DNA of 64,000 bases from Convivina intestini (GTDB lineage Bacteria > Bacillota > Bacilli > Lactobacillales > Lactobacillaceae). The stretch covers positions 186,001 to 250,000 of the forward strand of contig NZ_QEKT01000002.1 in NCBI RefSeq assembly GCF_003096575.1. Reading direction: 5' to 3'. The position numbers and the translations under genes are program-made. Below, one piece after another: positions 958 to 8,048 of this stretch; positions within the stretch are counted from its first letter, which is position 1; every line of letters starts with the position of its first letter. The notes under the pieces are model-generated. The model made no database searches, had not been told where the DNA came from, and was given only the letters and a program-made list of their open reading frames with translations.

Positions 958-1584
958 TCAAGTGGGCAAATCAAATCGTTGTAAATGCCACGTTTCAATA
1001 ATATTAATAAGTTTTTGGGCATAAGCTGGATCTGTGGCATAGCCATCAGCTACCAGAGCCTGGGCGGCCTTTTTATAATCCTTAGCGGCCATCACGTGCT
1101 GGTATTGCAGGGCATTCCAAGGCGTTCCCTCTTTTAACAAACGGGCATGATCTTCCATGCTGGCCTGCCAGTTGGGATAAACCGCAAAATTATCTTTAAT
1201 CACCAGCCAATGACCGTTCTCATATTCACTGGTTTCAATTAAAATACTGGCCTGATTGCCATGCGCCTTAACACCGTACAAATTATGATACTTTTGGGCT
1301 AACTCGCTTTGATTCCAATTCGATTCTAAAATAGCTTGAGCCAAACTGATTGAAGCTAAAATACCATATTTCTTTTGCATTTGACGGGCATTAGGGGCCC
1401 AGCTGGCAATCAATTCCTGATGCTGCTTGGTTTGAGCCGTTAAAGTCGGATTAAGATTAGGACCCGGTTGGCTAGGCGTTAAGATCGCTAAAATCAATAA
1501 TCCCAATAGAGATCCGGCCACAATGAAATAAATTTGACGTTTTTTCTTATTTTTAGGTAATCTAAGAATTTTTCCTTGACTCAT
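958..1584 (-). CDS. Membrane-anchored GH73 N-acetylglucosaminidase
   Basis: Putative peptidoglycan hydrolase of 208 residues. A basic N-terminus is followed by one hydrophobic segment (about residues 18-35), a signal anchor or signal peptide with no lipobox, so the catalytic part should face the wall. The remainder is a glucosaminidase (GH73) domain with ILESNWNQS, whose Glu (about residue 87) is the expected catalytic acid, then LYGVK and a C-terminal AQKLINIIETW helix typical of this family. No SH3 or LysM wall-binding repeats are present, so it is a minimal version. Its ATG overlaps the cydC stop by one base (TAATG), indicating translational coupling, although no oxidase-related role is known for this family. 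Confidence 0.85.
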   Translation of the reverse strand: MSQGKILRLPKNKKKRQIYFIVAGSLLGLLILAILTPSQPGPNLNPTLTAQTKQHQELIASWAPNARQMQKKYGILASISLAQAILESNWNQSELAQKYHNLYGVKAHGNQASILIETSEYENGHWLVIKDNFAVYPNWQASMEDHARLLKEGTPWNALQYQHVMAAKDYKKAAQALVADGYATDPAYAQKLINIIETWHLQRFDLPT

Positions 1585-3308
1585 TAAAATTGATCCATTG
1601 CGTATAGTTGCTTAAAGGCTTCGGAATGCGCTAATAGTTCTGATGGCGATCCAGCCATGGTAAAGTGCCCATCATTTAGGAAATAGATTTGATCGACAGC
1701 TTCGATCCCAGTCAAATGGTGCGTTACCCAGATAATCGTTCGATCCTTTAAGGCCGTGAAAATCTGCGTTAACACCGCCGCCTCTGTTTTAGGATCTAAA
1801 CTAACCGTAGGTTCATCTAAAATCACAATTGGCGCATCTTGGAGCAAAATTCGCGCTAAGGCAAAACGCTGCCGTTCGCCACCCGAAAAACGTTGTCCGG
1901 CTTCTTGCATGGGGGTTTGATAACCCTGGGGTAAAGAAGCAACTAAATCAGCTAAGCCAGCCTGTTGAACGGCTTGCTCAACTTGAACTTGACTGGCGGT
2001 TAGATTACCCATGCGAATGTTATTTTCAATCGTGGTATCAAATAAATACGACTGCTGATCCAATACGGCCATTGTTTTTGGTAATTCATCAGCTAGTTGA
2101 TTGGGATTTAACCCACCAAGTGTCACTTTACCATTCGTCGGTTGTAAATCACCTGCTAGTAATTTCAAAATGGTCGTTTTACCAGCACCCGAAGGGCCTA
2201 ACAAAGCCATTTTTTGGCCAGCTAATAAGTCAAAGGATAAATCATTTAAGACTAATTTATCACCATAAGCAAAGGAAACCTGGTTAAATACGACGGTCGT
2301 TGATTGGGGCTTAACTCCTGCAGTTGAATTTTGGCTAGGTTCAGGCAAGGTATTCAAGCGTTTAATGCTATCCTCATAAAATGAAGACTCACTGACTCCT
2401 TGATTAACCGCAATAAAGCTATCAACCAATGGAATAATGGCCAAAGTAAAGGCCGCGATGTAATTACTGGCCAAAAAATTATGACCAAATTGATGGGTAG
2501 CCCAAATCATGATCAAAACCATTAGTAAGAGGGATAAAAGTTGAATGGTAAAATCACGCCACCAACCAAAGGCCATCAACTTCCCCTTGACTCGGGAAAG
2601 TTTTTGCATAGTTTTCCCTTCTTGGGCAACTAAATCCGCCTGCCGCCCAGACAAAACCCAGTCCTGCATACCTAAAATGGCATCCGTCGCGTCAGTATAT
2701 AAAGCACTTTGTAAAGCCTTTTGCCGGCTAACTTTCGCCCGATTTAGCGTTAGACTAGCTAACGGAATCACAATTAAAATCAAGGCTAACACCAACAGCC
2801 ACAGCAACATAAAGGTCCAACTAAAGATTCCTAAACCAATGCTACTAATCAGATACAAAAGCATACCCGCCCCTAGGGGAAATAGGGTTCGTAAATATAA
2901 ATTCTCTAATTGTTCCAAGTCTTCGGCTAAAATACCTAAAACTTGACCAGTTTGTAAACGACTGCGAATGCTACTAGCACTCTGCGCAGCACTTTGATAC
3001 AGGCGCTGACGAGATTTAGAGACGACCCGTAAAACCCAGTTATGAGAAACTAGGCGTTCGACATAGCGAAAAACGGGCCGGGCGATTCCAAACCCCCGGG
3101 TTAATACGATAGGCACATAAATCAATAAAATATTACTGGGATGCTGGGCGGACCTAGAAATCAAATAGCCGGAAATAAACATCAAAGCTGCAGCCGCAAA
3201 GGTTGTCATAAAGCCTAAAACAATCGAACTCCACAAACCACGTTTTTGTTGGCGGAGAAAGGGCATGACCCAATGATCTTGGGCTAATAATTTTTTTAGT
3301 TCTTTCAT
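1584..3308 (-). CDS. cydC: ABC transporter CydC (thiol/heme exporter subunit for cytochrome bd assembly)
   Basis: 574-residue half-transporter: a six-helix type I ABC membrane domain (about residues 25-300), then an ATPase domain with Walker A GPSGAGKTT, signature FSGGERQRFALAR, Walker B IVILDEPT and a WVTHH switch histidine. CydC pairs with CydD; the CydDC exporter (glutathione/cysteine in E. coli, with proposed heme links) is needed to assemble cytochrome bd. The start overlaps the cydD stop as ATGA. Assignment to CydC rather than CydD rests on position as the second of two ABC genes after cydAB and on the family pattern; the two names are sometimes exchanged in Firmicutes. Confidence 0.88.
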   Translation of the reverse strand: MKELKKLLAQDHWVMPFLRQQKRGLWSSIVLGFMTTFAAAALMFISGYLISRSAQHPSNILLIYVPIVLTRGFGIARPVFRYVERLVSHNWVLRVVSKSRQRLYQSAAQSASSIRSRLQTGQVLGILAEDLEQLENLYLRTLFPLGAGMLLYLISSIGLGIFSWTFMLLWLLVLALILIVIPLASLTLNRAKVSRQKALQSALYTDATDAILGMQDWVLSGRQADLVAQEGKTMQKLSRVKGKLMAFGWWRDFTIQLLSLLLMVLIMIWATHQFGHNFLASNYIAAFTLAIIPLVDSFIAVNQGVSESSFYEDSIKRLNTLPEPSQNSTAGVKPQSTTVVFNQVSFAYGDKLVLNDLSFDLLAGQKMALLGPSGAGKTTILKLLAGDLQPTNGKVTLGGLNPNQLADELPKTMAVLDQQSYLFDTTIENNIRMGNLTASQVQVEQAVQQAGLADLVASLPQGYQTPMQEAGQRFSGGERQRFALARILLQDAPIVILDEPTVSLDPKTEAAVLTQIFTALKDRTIIWVTHHLTGIEAVDQIYFLNDGHFTMAGSPSELLAHSEAFKQLYAMDQF

Positions 3309-5035
3309 AGATTAACCCCCTGGTGCAAGGCATCGCGCAATACGTTTAATTGACTATCGGCTTGGGCCAATAGTGCCGCTGGTCGTCCCTGCTCAACTAA
3401 ATGACCATCCCGCATCACTAAGACATAGTCCATTTGCTTTAGCCAGTGTAAGCGATGGGTCGCAAACAGGACTAAATGATTTTCAAAAAGTGGTGCCATA
3501 CTTTGCTTTAGCGCTAACTCGGTTTGAATATCCAAATGGGCCGTAGGTTCATCAAAGAGCAGTACTCGCCGCTTTGGGTCCAAAAACATTCGGGCCAAGG
3601 CAACTCGTTGAACCTGACCGCCCGATAATTGACGACCGCCCTCTCCAACAATAGTGGCCAAACCATCAGGTAATTCAGCCACTAATTCCGTTAAACCAGC
3701 CTGTTTGATGGCTAAATCAAAGGCTTTTTGGTCAGCCTGAGGGTAATAAAACGTTAAATTATCCTTTAAAGAGGCATGAAAAATATAAGGGGCTTGGGGT
3801 AAATAGAAAAATTGCTTCTGCCAGTCAGCTTGGGCCAAATGCGGCAGGTCTTGGCCATCAATACTGATTTGACTACCCGCTTGTGGTAATAACTGACCAC
3901 CGAGCAGATTCAAAAGCGTTGATTTTCCGGAACCACTTTCGCCAACAATTGCAACCCGTTGATAACCCCGTAAATCAAAGTTCAAATCAACTAAATTCGG
4001 TTGGTCCTGGTAGGAAAAGTTTAAGTTTTTCACCTGTAAATTACTAGTCGCCTTCCATTCTGCCAAATGCAGTTGATTTTGGTCAGTCATTTCCGGCATA
4101 TCTAAGACTTCTAAGACCTCGGCATAGGCATTTTTACCATCCAAGGTCGCATGGTAATCGTCAGCAAAACTCCGCAGTGGTAAAAAGTACTCGGGCGCTA
4201 AAATCAAGATGGATAAGGCAGGGAACAGGGTCATACGAGCGTTTAACAAATCCAAACCTAAGAAAACGGCCAAAACGGCAATCGATAAGGTGGTAAAGAA
4301 ATCTAAGGCAAAGGTTGAGGTAATGGCAATAATTAAAGTCCGCATCGTCGTCTTACGGTAATCTTCAGAGATTTGATAAATTTCTTGTCCGTAGGCCCGT
4401 GATAACCCTAATTGCTTTAAGGTTGGCAAGCCCCGTAAGCCGTCGACAAAGCGATTATTTAAATTTTTAAAATTCTGATACTCATCGTCAGCTTTCTTTT
4501 GAGCCGCCAAACCTAAAATAATGAAAAAGATAATGATAACTGGGAAAATTAGTAGTAAGAACACGCCTTGAATCCACTTAAAATAGGTAATCGCAATTAA
4601 TACAATCCAAGGAATGATTGATAAATCCCCGACCTTAATTAAGATTAGTTGAAAATAATTTTTGACATTATCCAATCCAGCAGCTAAAACACTCACAGCC
4701 TGACCCGTCCCGAATTTAGCAATTAGCGGACTGCCTAATTTGGCATACTTTTCCAATAAGGCAATTCGATAATTTTCGACCGTCTGATCGGCAAAGTTGG
4801 CCATCACATAGTTTTTTACGACTACCAGCAACTGACGTAGCCCAAAAAACAAAGTAAATAAAATCACCGGCAGGGTAATACTAGTTAGTCCCTTGCCTTC
4901 CCACAGCCACACTAAGGCCTGGGAAAGACTAATTCCCTGCCCCACAATGGCTAGGGCTTGAATGCCGGTTAGCACAATTAAATAAAGGAGGGTCACCTTA
5001 ATTTTAGGAAGCGCCAATAAGCGTCGATCAAACAT
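3305..5035 (-). CDS. cydD: ABC transporter CydD, partner of CydC
   Basis: 576-residue half-transporter with N-terminal membrane helices (about residues 15-300) and a C-terminal ATPase domain: Walker A GESGSGKST, signature LSGGQVQRVALAR, Walker B VLLFDEPTAHLD and switch ATHR. It forms a heterodimer with the next gene product and is required for functional cytochrome bd. It is separated from cydB by 75 bases containing a strong hairpin, whereas cydD and cydC are fused translationally (ATGA). The hairpin may lower expression of the exporter relative to the oxidase. Confidence 0.88.
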   Translation of the reverse strand: MFDRRLLALPKIKVTLLYLIVLTGIQALAIVGQGISLSQALVWLWEGKGLTSITLPVILFTLFFGLRQLLVVVKNYVMANFADQTVENYRIALLEKYAKLGSPLIAKFGTGQAVSVLAAGLDNVKNYFQLILIKVGDLSIIPWIVLIAITYFKWIQGVFLLLIFPVIIIFFIILGLAAQKKADDEYQNFKNLNNRFVDGLRGLPTLKQLGLSRAYGQEIYQISEDYRKTTMRTLIIAITSTFALDFFTTLSIAVLAVFLGLDLLNARMTLFPALSILILAPEYFLPLRSFADDYHATLDGKNAYAEVLEVLDMPEMTDQNQLHLAEWKATSNLQVKNLNFSYQDQPNLVDLNFDLRGYQRVAIVGESGSGKSTLLNLLGGQLLPQAGSQISIDGQDLPHLAQADWQKQFFYLPQAPYIFHASLKDNLTFYYPQADQKAFDLAIKQAGLTELVAELPDGLATIVGEGGRQLSGGQVQRVALARMFLDPKRRVLLFDEPTAHLDIQTELALKQSMAPLFENHLVLFATHRLHWLKQMDYVLVMRDGHLVEQGRPAALLAQADSQLNVLRDALHQGVNL

Positions 5036-5110: not shown

Positions 5111-6124
5111 TCATTCTACCACTTTTTTAGCGATAATCCGCTTCCGGAAAACCCAGAAACTCCAAATTTGGTAGCCCAAAACAATTGGCAAAACTGTCAA
5201 TGAAATAATCGTCATGACTTGCAAAGTGTAGGGACTAGATGAGGCAGATTCAATTGTAAGAGAGTGCAACGGATTGTTAGCAACCATTACCCGTGGGAAT
5301 AGACCAACAAAGAGTAAGATGGCTACTTCGACCAAAGTCAAACCAGAGGCGATAAAAGGCAAAACTTCCTTACCCTTCTTAACCGTCATGAACCAACCCA
5401 AAACCGTGGTAGCCACGATTACTACCAAAATTAATAGCACGGCAACCGGCTTAGTTTGAATGAAGTTAGTGTAGAAGAAGAGCAAGACCGCAAAGAGGGC
5501 CTCCCCAGCCAAAAGCAAGGGGTATAAGACCTTCAACTGACCAGCTGCTCGCTCACGCATGGGTCCATCGATTCGGATACGCGTGTAGTTTAGACCGTGG
5601 ACATAGCTCATCAAAGCGACCGCAATACCACCAACCAAAGTAAAGAGGGTAAAGTAATCAAAGAATCCGGCTGATACATTACCTTTGGCATCCATCGGCG
5701 TTCCAGATACCATGGCCGTTAGGATAATCCCCAAGAAGAACGGAGCAAAGAAAGAGGCAATCGCAATCAAACGTTCCCAAATTGCACTTCCTTGTCGAGT
5801 GGGCATATGCTCACGGAATTCAAAGGAAACGCCACGATAAATTAAGGCCAACAACAAGCCCAACAATAGAAGGTAAAAACCAGAGAAGAGCGAAGCATAC
5901 CAGTAAGGGAAGGCCGCAAAAGTTGCTCCTCCGGCTGTTACTAACCACACTTCATTTCCATCCCAAGTCGGCCCAATTGTTTTATATAGGGCTTCACGTT
6001 CGTGGTGATCACGAGCCAGCGTCAAAAACTGCATGCCGACCCCAAAATCATACCCTTCTAAGAAAAGAAAGCCTGACCACAAAACGCCGATAAGAACAAA
6101 CCATAAAAGCTGTAATACTGACAT
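5111..6124 (-). CDS. cydB: Cytochrome bd quinol oxidase subunit II
   Basis: 337-residue multi-helix membrane protein of the CydB family, the structural subunit paired with CydA in the oxygen-reducing quinol oxidase of the cell membrane. The N-terminus contains the family hallmark FLEGYDFGVGM (about residues 21-31) and GPTWDGNEVWLV, followed by alternating hydrophobic helices. The start ATG overlaps the cydA stop as TAATG, so translation is coupled. Length is normal for Firmicutes CydB. In lactic acid bacteria the complex generally needs exogenous heme and a menaquinone source; that is family knowledge, not something shown here. Confidence 0.95.
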   Translation of the reverse strand: MSVLQLLWFVLIGVLWSGFLFLEGYDFGVGMQFLTLARDHHEREALYKTIGPTWDGNEVWLVTAGGATFAAFPYWYASLFSGFYLLLLGLLLALIYRGVSFEFREHMPTRQGSAIWERLIAIASFFAPFFLGIILTAMVSGTPMDAKGNVSAGFFDYFTLFTLVGGIAVALMSYVHGLNYTRIRIDGPMRERAAGQLKVLYPLLLAGEALFAVLLFFYTNFIQTKPVAVLLILVVIVATTVLGWFMTVKKGKEVLPFIASGLTLVEVAILLFVGLFPRVMVANNPLHSLTIESASSSPYTLQVMTIISLTVLPIVLGYQIWSFWVFRKRIIAKKVVE

Positions 6125-7599
6125 TAGACTTGGGCCTCCTTTCCTGCCAAATCGTCATAAGGATCACGATCAGTTTGTGTTGCTTCTTGTTCATGATAAG
6201 GTCCTTGGTGCAAAACACGCCGTGATAACCAAATCATAACCCCACCTAAGGTACTAAAGGTTAGGAAGTAAACAATGTTTGAGAATAACAATGAAGCGAC
6301 CGAAACATTTGGTGAAACTGCATCGGCAATGGTCATCAAGCCATAGACAACCCATGGATAACGACCTAATTCAGTGACTAACCAACCAGCTGTGTTGACT
6401 ACAAATGGGAAGAAGGTCATCACCCCCATTACCCACAAGAACCAACGCTGGGTCAAAATCAATTGCGACTTCTTACGATTAAACCACAAAGCTACTAGAG
6501 CAACCAAGGCTAGCAAACCAGCCCCCATCGCCATAACACGGAAAGAGTAGAAAAGCGTATTTTCAGGAACATAATAATCCTTAATGTCGCCCTTGGTCTT
6601 ACCGTACTTAGCCTCAAATTCTTTATTTAATTCAATCGTACCCTTGGTCGTTCCACCAGTTAAGCTGTGGTTACCCAAAATTGACAAGGCATACGGCACT
6701 TCGATTTTGGCAATTGACTTGTGCGTCTTAGGGTTAGTTACCGCAATCGCTGCCCAAGGCTGCGCCTTATCGGCTCGCTTAGAAGAATCAATGGTTTCAT
6801 CGACTCCTTCCATAGCGGCATACTTCATTGGCTGCATTGATTGTAATTCAAAGGCATGTTGGTCACCAGTGATAAAGGCGCCGCCCAAACCAACCAAACC
6901 AACAACCAAGGCGATATTAATTGATTTACGGAACAAAGGAACCTCAGGGTCATCTTGCTTTAGCTTTAACAACTTAAAGGCTGACATACCGGCCACAATG
7001 AAGCCGGCAGTCACTAAGGTACCAACCACCACGTGGGGGAACTCGATCCATAGCTGCTTGTTTAACAACAAGTCACCAAAGTTTGTTAAAACCGCCCGCC
7101 CCTTTTCATTATCAATCGCATACCCAACGGGGTTTTGCATGAAAGAGTTGGCTGCTAAAATCCATAATGAAGAAATCATCGAAGCTATGGCTGTAATCCA
7201 AATGAAAATTACATGTACCGCTGGCTTGAAGCGATCCCAGGTAAAGGACCACAAACCAATAAAGGTTGACTCAGCGAAGAAGGCTACTAAGGCCTCAACG
7301 GCTAAGGGCGCTCCAAAAATATCCCCGACATATCGTGAATATTCTGACCAGTTCATACCGAACTGGAACTCTTGAATCAAACCAGTCACAACCCCAACGG
7401 CAAAACTAAGCAAGAAAATCTTACCCCAGAATTGCGCCATCTTTTTATATATTTCGTCTTTTTTGATGACATAGAGTGTTTCCATTACCGCTACCACAAT
7501 TCCTAGTCCAATTGACATTGGCACAAAGAAGAAGTGAAAAATAGTCGTCATGGCAAACTGGAAACGCGCTAAATCAACGATTCCCACTAAAGCATTCAT
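6124..7599 (-). CDS. cydA: Cytochrome bd quinol oxidase subunit I
   Basis: 491-residue heme-bearing subunit of cytochrome bd. The ATG at 7597-7599 is chosen over one 24 bases upstream because GGAGG lies eight bases before it and the family begins close to this point. Near the N-terminus RFQFAMTTIFHFFF holds the heme ligand histidine (His22, matching His19 in E. coli). WIEFPHVVV contains the second histidine, and the ELGRYPWVVYG segment is the conserved quinol-side motif. The quinol loop is of the short type usual in Gram-positives. First gene of cydABDC; its leader carries a promoter, a palindrome and a hairpin described separately. Confidence 0.95.
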   Translation of the reverse strand: MNALVGIVDLARFQFAMTTIFHFFFVPMSIGLGIVVAVMETLYVIKKDEIYKKMAQFWGKIFLLSFAVGVVTGLIQEFQFGMNWSEYSRYVGDIFGAPLAVEALVAFFAESTFIGLWSFTWDRFKPAVHVIFIWITAIASMISSLWILAANSFMQNPVGYAIDNEKGRAVLTNFGDLLLNKQLWIEFPHVVVGTLVTAGFIVAGMSAFKLLKLKQDDPEVPLFRKSINIALVVGLVGLGGAFITGDQHAFELQSMQPMKYAAMEGVDETIDSSKRADKAQPWAAIAVTNPKTHKSIAKIEVPYALSILGNHSLTGGTTKGTIELNKEFEAKYGKTKGDIKDYYVPENTLFYSFRVMAMGAGLLALVALVALWFNRKKSQLILTQRWFLWVMGVMTFFPFVVNTAGWLVTELGRYPWVVYGLMTIADAVSPNVSVASLLFSNIVYFLTFSTLGGVMIWLSRRVLHQGPYHEQEATQTDRDPYDDLAGKEAQV

Positions 7600-7621
7600 A
7601 ACTTTTCCTCCAGAAATTTCC

Positions 7622-7644
7622 AAAAAGCCTATTTAAATTAGGCT
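7622..7644 (-). promoter_or_regulatory. Hairpin with T-run in the cydA leader
   Basis: AGCCTA and TAGGCT form a six-pair stem around a seven-base loop, followed on the minus strand by TTTTT, about 22 bases before the cydA start and downstream of the putative promoter. It is a weak terminator in a 5' leader and so a possible attenuator of the cyd operon. Confidence 0.4.
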
Positions 7645-7656
7645 CACTACATGATT

Positions 7657-7685
7657 AGTTTATCACTTGATAAGCAACTTGACCA
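7657..7685 (-). promoter_or_regulatory. Candidate cydA promoter with internal palindrome
   Basis: TGGTCA (7680-7685), 17 bases, TAAACT (7657-7662). A perfect palindrome TTATCA-CT-TGATAA (7660-7673) overlaps the -10 and the spacer, where a bound repressor would block RNA polymerase. The regulator is unknown. It does not look like a Rex site and is not a cre. Confidence 0.45.
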
Positions 7686-7716: not shown

Positions 7717-7743
7717 GAAAAACCACTACCGCCCGGTAGTGGT
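7717..7743 (-). terminator. Terminator after yrzB
   Basis: ACCACTACCG and CGGTAGTGGT form a strong stem followed on the minus strand by TTTTT. It directly follows the DUF1292 gene and separates it from cydA. Confidence 0.9.
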
Positions 7744-7748
7744 CATCC

Positions 7749-8048
7749 TTAGTTAAAATTGCTGTCATCGTCTAAGAAGGTATTTAATACTTCTTCAACC
7801 ATATCCCATTCGGCATCATCTTCGATTGGAATCAAATCATCTTCAGTGGCATCGCCGTTTTCATCGGGCTTGAAAATATAAGCTTGAACGTCAACCTGTT
7901 CATCTTCTTCGACACCGTCTGGTACTAACAGGATATAGTCGCGATCATATTCCTCGGAATGAAAGGTAAAGAGCACCTCAAAAAGTGCTTCGTCACCATT
8001 TTCATCTACTAAGGTAATCTTGTCGATTTCTGGGTTGTTTTCAGTCAT
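7749..8048 (-). CDS. yrzB: DUF1292 (YrzB-type) acidic protein
   Basis: 99-residue, very acidic protein of the DUF1292 family, function unknown. Recognisable family features are ITLVDENGDEALFEVLFTF (residues 11-29), the EEYDRDYILLVPD strand and the C-terminal EWDMVEEVLNTF. In Bacillus subtilis and many Firmicutes this gene directly follows alaS-yrzL(ireB)-yrrK(ruvX). Here those three genes end at 16629 and the his genes lie between. It has its own promoter and terminator. Family assignment is firm; the cellular job is not known. Confidence 0.85.
   Translation of the reverse strand: MTENNPEIDKITLVDENGDEALFEVLFTFHSEEYDRDYILLVPDGVEEDEQVDVQAYIFKPDENGDATEDDLIPIEDDAEWDMVEEVLNTFLDDDSNFN

Follow-up and report, generated by a model that had tools for sequence, protein, structure and literature searches.

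We conclude that the perfect palindrome in the cydA promoter of Convivina intestini is probably the operator of an FhtR-like repressor of the TetR family, which would be released by heme and would in this way control cydA. Many lactic acid bacteria respire only when fed heme. The findings computed here are the site itself, its position over the -10 element, its conservation, its co-occurrence with the regulator, the decay of a half-site in some genomes, the relation of the candidate regulator to FhtR and a conserved tyrosine. The starting point was a window of 64,000 nucleotides, the whole stretch of DNA that was analysed, and all coordinates without a contig label refer to it.

The preliminary description had reported the palindrome TTATCA-CT-TGATAA in this promoter, and it is indeed present at positions 7660-7673, overlapping the cydA -10; its minus-strand reading is TTATCAAGTGATAA. 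It is not known to fit the consensus of Rex or that of CcpA. The gene that follows, cydA (6124-7599, minus strand, start codon ATG at 7599-7597, Shine-Dalgarno sequence GGAGG at 7607-7611 on the same strand), encodes subunit I of cytochrome bd oxidase (491 aa; Pfam Cyt_bd_oxida_I, 9.2e-149). It heads an operon-like run on the minus strand, continued by an ORF at 5111-6124, presumably cydB-like and part of the cydA operon, and by two ORFs at 3305-5035 and 1584-3308 that we take to be CydCD-type ABC transporters; these three names were assigned by position in the ORF list. As read from the sequence, an extended -10-like element, TGA-TAAACT (7657-7665, minus strand), is made in part by the downstream half of the palindrome, and a weak -35-like hexamer, TGGTCA (7680-7685, minus strand), lies 17 nt upstream of the -10. 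A strict promoter scan listed no minus-strand promoter in the region upstream of cydA. According to a terminator scan, the preceding gene, ORF 7749-8048, ends in a terminator at 7721-7744 on the minus strand. Since this terminator closes the preceding gene and isolates the cyd promoter, cydA needs a promoter of its own within the approximately 120 bp between. Sequence, matches elsewhere in the genome and conservation, together with the operator form given in the accessible part of the Enterococcus faecalis FhtR report (PMC7858072), lead us to predict an FhtR-type operator of the form TTATC-N4-GATAA at 7660-7673, without strand assignment.

Palindrome shape alone is not remarkable in this DNA. 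Perfect 6-2-6 palindromes occur in the window at chance level (21 found, 20.0 expected under a first-order model), and the pattern TTATCN4GATAA matches once against 0.17 expected. Across the 1.6-Mb genome the pattern has ten matches and its reversal one, with about 4 expected by extrapolation from the composition of the window. What is above chance is the recurrence before heme genes and the conservation before cydA. Three of the ten matches precede heme genes (cydA, katA and a gene cluster with NEAT domains), three are in other intergenic regions and four lie inside ORFs; that seven of the ten are not at heme promoters speaks against our preferred reading. The preliminary description had pointed to a search for the palindrome elsewhere in the genome, and this was rewarded: the exact 14-mer exists in two copies genome-wide, the second before katA at -52 to -39 from its start, and the katA product belongs to the heme catalase family by domain search. 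A one-base variant, TTATCAAGCGATAA, is found at C1:423030 upstream of the NEAT cluster, which consists mostly of surface ORFs with a KxYKxGKxW signal. The operator form also stands before katA (L030), cydA (TTATCGAGTGATAA) and the NEAT cluster in the congener G001.

Several further observations concern these loci. The NEAT cluster (G000:C1:418.6-423.0 kb, corresponding to 7654-11942 of L317, minus strand) is a possible heme-capture locus in Convivina, and its large frame comprises 921 aa in G001 and is split in the C. intestini genome, G000. Three other sites are of uncertain meaning: TTATCATTTGATAA at C1:340682-340695 (L003), over the ribosome site of a GNAT gene preceding an FAD-oxidoreductase-like ORF and kept in the congener; a site at C3:15196 before an Nramp (mntH-like) gene, missing from the match list of the congener; and a site at C10:6549 (L293), kept in the congener, 180 bp before a surface ORF of the KxYKxGKxW type. 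A KxYKxGKxW protein similar by eye is encoded downstream of an FhtR-type site both in Convivina (L293) and in the sister genus (L282/L288). The first pattern matches in other genera were mixed, many of them inside ORFs, and were set aside.

FhtR of E. faecalis is a heme-binding TetR repressor; in the hrtBA promoter it binds two sites, P1 (TTATCAATCGATAA) and P2 (TTATCGATTGATAA), according to the available part of the report (PMC7858072). The fhtR-hrtBA locus of Vagococcus carries TTATCAATTGATAA and TTATCATTTGATAA. As FhtR reference we used the TetR of genome G542, which we regard as E. faecalis-type on account of the exact P1/P2 pair between its gene and hrtBA; this pair is present in 2/395 genomes of the order, and residue 132 of the reference is Tyr. 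The candidate regulator in C. intestini is a TetR protein of 192 aa (G000:C6, about 65,888-66,466; TetR_N in Pfam), whose gene lies between what we take to be a permease gene and rpoB. It shows 28% identity to FhtR over 189 aa (E 7.5e-29), and the next best of the ten TetRs of this genome reaches 7.8e-9. The two recognition helices read SQPALYHYF in the candidate and TQPNLYHHF in FhtR, and Tyr132 is aligned. The candidate gene is far from cyd and has no operator site of its own in this genome, which counts against our reading. An HrtB-like gene (34% identity to E. faecalis-type HrtB) is present directly behind another TetR gene, and no FhtR-type site within one mismatch was found in the 3.2 kb read there. 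A search of solved structures with the candidate returned generic TetR matches (among the best 60 of 98), and the NCBIfam matches to the TetRs all stayed below the cut-off of the model concerned.

In a tree of the regulators, the eight hrtBA-linked proteins, together with crtN-linked and g4 proteins, stand opposite the rpoB- and secE/nusG-linked ones across a branch of 2.18 with a support of 93/100, a value just under the mark set by the tool, in a tree that is unrooted in effect and has unreliable outgroup rows. The groups follow neighbouring genes that we assume to be rpoB, clpC and nusG, and L217 and L230, at contig ends, were placed partly by kin. Because the C. intestini TetR falls outside the hrtBA-linked side, we call it FhtR-like and not FhtR. 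The column of Tyr132 holds Tyr in all 24 rpoB- or secE/nusG-linked members at the sequence level; it is also Tyr in one of three unrelated TetRs. Five of the eight hrtBA-linked proteins have Tyr132, and the g11 and g21 members (L445, L446 and L211) have Leu or Phe, and these may therefore coordinate heme differently. One further FhtR-like TetR gene (L021, genome G028) is divergent from a gene that is carotenoid crtN-like by eye, and TTATCAAGTGATAA lies between the two.

The long branch that separates these proteins from the experimentally studied FhtR bears on the ligand. The same FhtR-like repressor could have a ligand other than heme, such as oxygen, a quinone or a different porphyrin, and ligand specificity can drift. 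We consider this unlikely, since the tyrosine is retained throughout the 24 members and the apparent targets, a bd oxidase, a catalase and NEAT proteins, have heme in common.

The preliminary description had envisaged two layers of control, a DNA-binding repressor at the promoter and attenuation in the leader. The first is supported, with the FhtR-like TetR as its candidate protein, and would be a logical layer for an oxidase that requires heme. The second finds no support in our folding analyses. The small hairpin and five T that had been described are present on the minus strand at 7622-7645 (stem 7645-7625, T run 7626-7622), with seven pairs including an outer G-U and a 7-nt loop. The leader nevertheless folds like its shuffled versions (z -0.35; 61/200 shuffles at least as stable), the terminator scan did not flag the hairpin, and Rfam searches at gathering thresholds gave no match in ten sources. 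Ten Leuconostoc cydA leaders yielded no consensus pairs. We thus rejected an intrinsic attenuator or riboswitch leader, given no excess stability over shuffles and no match to an Rfam family. C. praedatoris, whose CydA is 99% identical to that of the window, retains the hairpin with a single G-C pair changed to G-U, and a different hairpin followed by five T occupies the equivalent place in L1_55_11. Due to this recurrence in two near relatives the hairpin may play a minor role, and we regard it as quite unlikely that attenuation is the main or an added layer of control. Nine of the Leuconostoc leaders (L047-L050, L052-L055, L087; 97-128 nt), folded individually, proved somewhat structured, with z values of -0.10 to -2.81, and a stem often ended just before the Shine-Dalgarno sequence.

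The preliminary description had made its reading depend on conservation of the palindrome in relatives, and the cydA site is kept in many of them. All 13 aligned cydA promoters of Convivina, its sister genus (g53) and Leuconostoc carry the site, and the TTATC half, which lies outside the -10, is invariant while leader lengths range between 59 and 128 nt and the flanking sequences differ. The cydA sites of Levilactobacillus, Secundilactobacillus and Paucilactobacillus mostly read TTATCACTCGATATAAT and include the -10. In a tally of 42 cydA sites, the right half continues into one of the -10-like elements GATAAACT, GATATAAT, GATAAAAT or GATATGAT. A chance palindrome in which the conserved letters merely reflect the -10 box would agree with the chance number of such palindromes in the window, and is left with next to no probability by the invariant TTATC half and by the 0/42 FhtR-negative genomes described below.

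Occurrence of the site was then compared with that of the regulator. The first survey scored 43 cydA loci with up to 2 mismatches to TTATCANNTGATAA and sought the regulator in 28. Among the named genomes with both tests (n = 28), the regulator was found in 20/20 site-bearing ones (E at most 5e-54) and in 1/8 site-less ones. That single genome is a Vagococcus, in which the regulator adjoins hrtBA with two sites; the other site-less genomes gave either no regulator match or matches that were partial and weak (E 1e-13 to 1e-14). The wider survey scored 110 of 209 cydA-containing genomes from 22 genera, in chosen regions (30 + 80 loci) rather than a random draw. Among these Lactobacillaceae genomes, TTATCN4GATA(A/T) preceded cydA in 42/68 that have an FhtR-type TetR and in 0/42 that lack one (Fisher 1e-12, ignoring kinship), the relaxation of the last base to A or T having been chosen after the results of the first survey were seen. 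The strict TTATCN4GATAA gave 19/68 versus 0/42, a site with at most one mismatch 56/68 versus 4/42, and the reversed-sequence control 0/110 upstream regions. In this wide search at most 10 regulator candidates per genome were considered at E 1e-20, such that an FhtR-negative call could be a miss. The regulator match of G007 is partial, and L104, for which no regulator was found, has its cydA upstream region outside the scored set.

The cydA site is absent from 26 of the 68 FhtR-positive genomes, a point against our reading; 11 of them belong to g11, g19 and g21, 10 to g4, 4 to g52 and 1 to g3. All five regulators examined from g11, g19 and g21 (in four of the 11 genomes plus G104) have as neighbour an hrtB-like gene, 38-39% identical to HrtB, and FhtR-type sites are present there. 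In g4, TAATCATATGATAA precedes cydA in 9/10 genomes, and the five genomes of g52 and g3 counted here each have a cydA site with one mismatch. The g4 regulator examined (G004, L448) carries a site at its own gene, behind which come a Na+/H+ exchanger gene and a Pyr_redox_2 gene, the latter presumably NDH-2-like as judged by eye; this locus is about 15 kb from cydA.

Within Secundilactobacillus, the seven scored FhtR-positive genomes all have an intact cydA site. G177 (S. silagei) and G283 (S. hailunensis), the two in which the regulator is apparently absent, retain CGATATAAT, which contains the -10, and have TTAGC or TAAGC where TTATC would stand. A decayed half-site beside a retained -10 would be expected once a repressor has been lost. 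This bears on whether another regulator owns the site and merely co-occurs with the FhtR-like TetR, given that co-occurrence is no proof of binding and that the FhtR-type TetR is the regulator that was profiled in these genomes. We hold this to be very unlikely: the site has the form of experimentally shown FhtR operators, as far as the available part of that report goes (PMC7858072), TetRs of the family adjoin the same site in other genera, and the operator decays alongside apparent loss of the regulator in Secundilactobacillus.

Other apparent targets are more restricted than cydA. Before katA, two sites are found in tandem in G055 and G087, which belong to the sister genus, and one in each Convivina genome. 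The katA site is thus present in 4/16 FhtR-positive genomes with a full katA match (of 17 with any match, G219 was left out as a weak fragment, E 9.5e-4), and no zero-mismatch site was found before katA in the remaining 12 of these or in a further 26 katA loci that were read. In G055 and G087, sites are also located upstream (to approximately 280 bp) of the regulator gene itself, of genes for NEAT proteins, a second KxYKxGKxW protein and Mn-catalase, and of an Nramp, a DUF1516 and a TPR gene. The operator set of these two species (L277-L288, L320, L220) is apparently larger, with Nramp/CDF included, and the six sites compared are kept in both. A NEAT search of four Leuconostoc genomes and of G007 gave no match.

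We infer that the regulator binds its operator, represses cydA and is released by heme in the way of E. faecalis FhtR. In the absence of heme, a repressor dimer would cover the spacer and the -10 of the cydA promoter and block RNA polymerase. Heme, bound via the conserved tyrosine, would free the repressor from the operator. This heme-scavenging bacterium would then make cytochrome bd only when heme is available, and the heme catalase and the NEAT heme-capture proteins would behave likewise from similar sites; an FhtR-like repressor of heme export would have been redirected to genes that use heme. On a wider scale, we think it rather likely that in much of the Lactobacillaceae the rpoB-linked FhtR-like lineage acts as a heme-licensing switch, by which heme auxotrophs would build respiration only when heme arrives, with an operator code common to the hrtBA-linked export lineage. 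Its targets would be cydABCD widely and, in Convivina and the sister genus, katA and NEAT surface proteins, perhaps also the regulator itself and manganese genes. Two published systems count against this reading, in each case from the accessible part of the report. In E. faecalis, katA is not induced by heme, and FhtR acts on KatA indirectly, via efflux (PMC7858072). In Lactobacillus oligofermentans, cyd transcripts differed between carbon sources, and growth was no better with heme plus menaquinone than with menaquinone alone (PMC4972977).

Within the open-access literature, we found no paper that identifies the link between the supply of heme and the transcription of cydABCD in Lactobacillaceae. 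The operator strings are mostly absent from that literature, one of them occurring in a Clostridioides difficile paper, and the open-access papers that contain both FhtR and lactobacilli seem unrelated. The type of sensor is known; within these bounds, what appears new is the rpoB-linked lineage and the employment of such a sensor in the control of respiration in Lactobacillaceae. The candidate regulator, the operator and the loss pattern make the coupling of heme to cydABCD testable in food-grade species, and the operator offers a way to predict heme-responsive genes, including those for NEAT-type proteins in Convivina. If our reading is true, a switch for heme detoxification and a switch for heme use share one operator code.

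Three known systems invite comparison, each as given in the accessible part of its report. PefR of Streptococcus agalactiae is likewise a heme-responsive repressor with a palindromic operator that is similar at first sight, but it belongs to the MarR family and its known targets are pefAB and pefRCD (PMC8044140). We rejected PefR as owner of the site, the half-site centres differing by one base on each side, by eye, from the pefAB/pefRCD oligonucleotides (PMC8044140). HrtR-hrtBA of Lactococcus lactis, as described in PMC7858072, has in common the control of heme efflux by heme through a TetR-type protein; HrtR is autoregulated and, according to the same source, has no homology to FhtR. The closest relative is FhtR-hrtBA of E. 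faecalis, with which the system proposed here has in common the TetR family, a 14-nt TTATC-N4-GATAA site in the -10/-35 region, Tyr132 and a stand-alone regulator gene (PMC7858072). It differs from FhtR-hrtBA in that cydA has one site instead of two, that the regulator gene lies beside rpoB and not hrtBA, its product falling outside the hrtBA-linked side of the tree, and that the apparent targets (cydABCD, katA and NEAT genes) serve the use and capture of heme and not its efflux.
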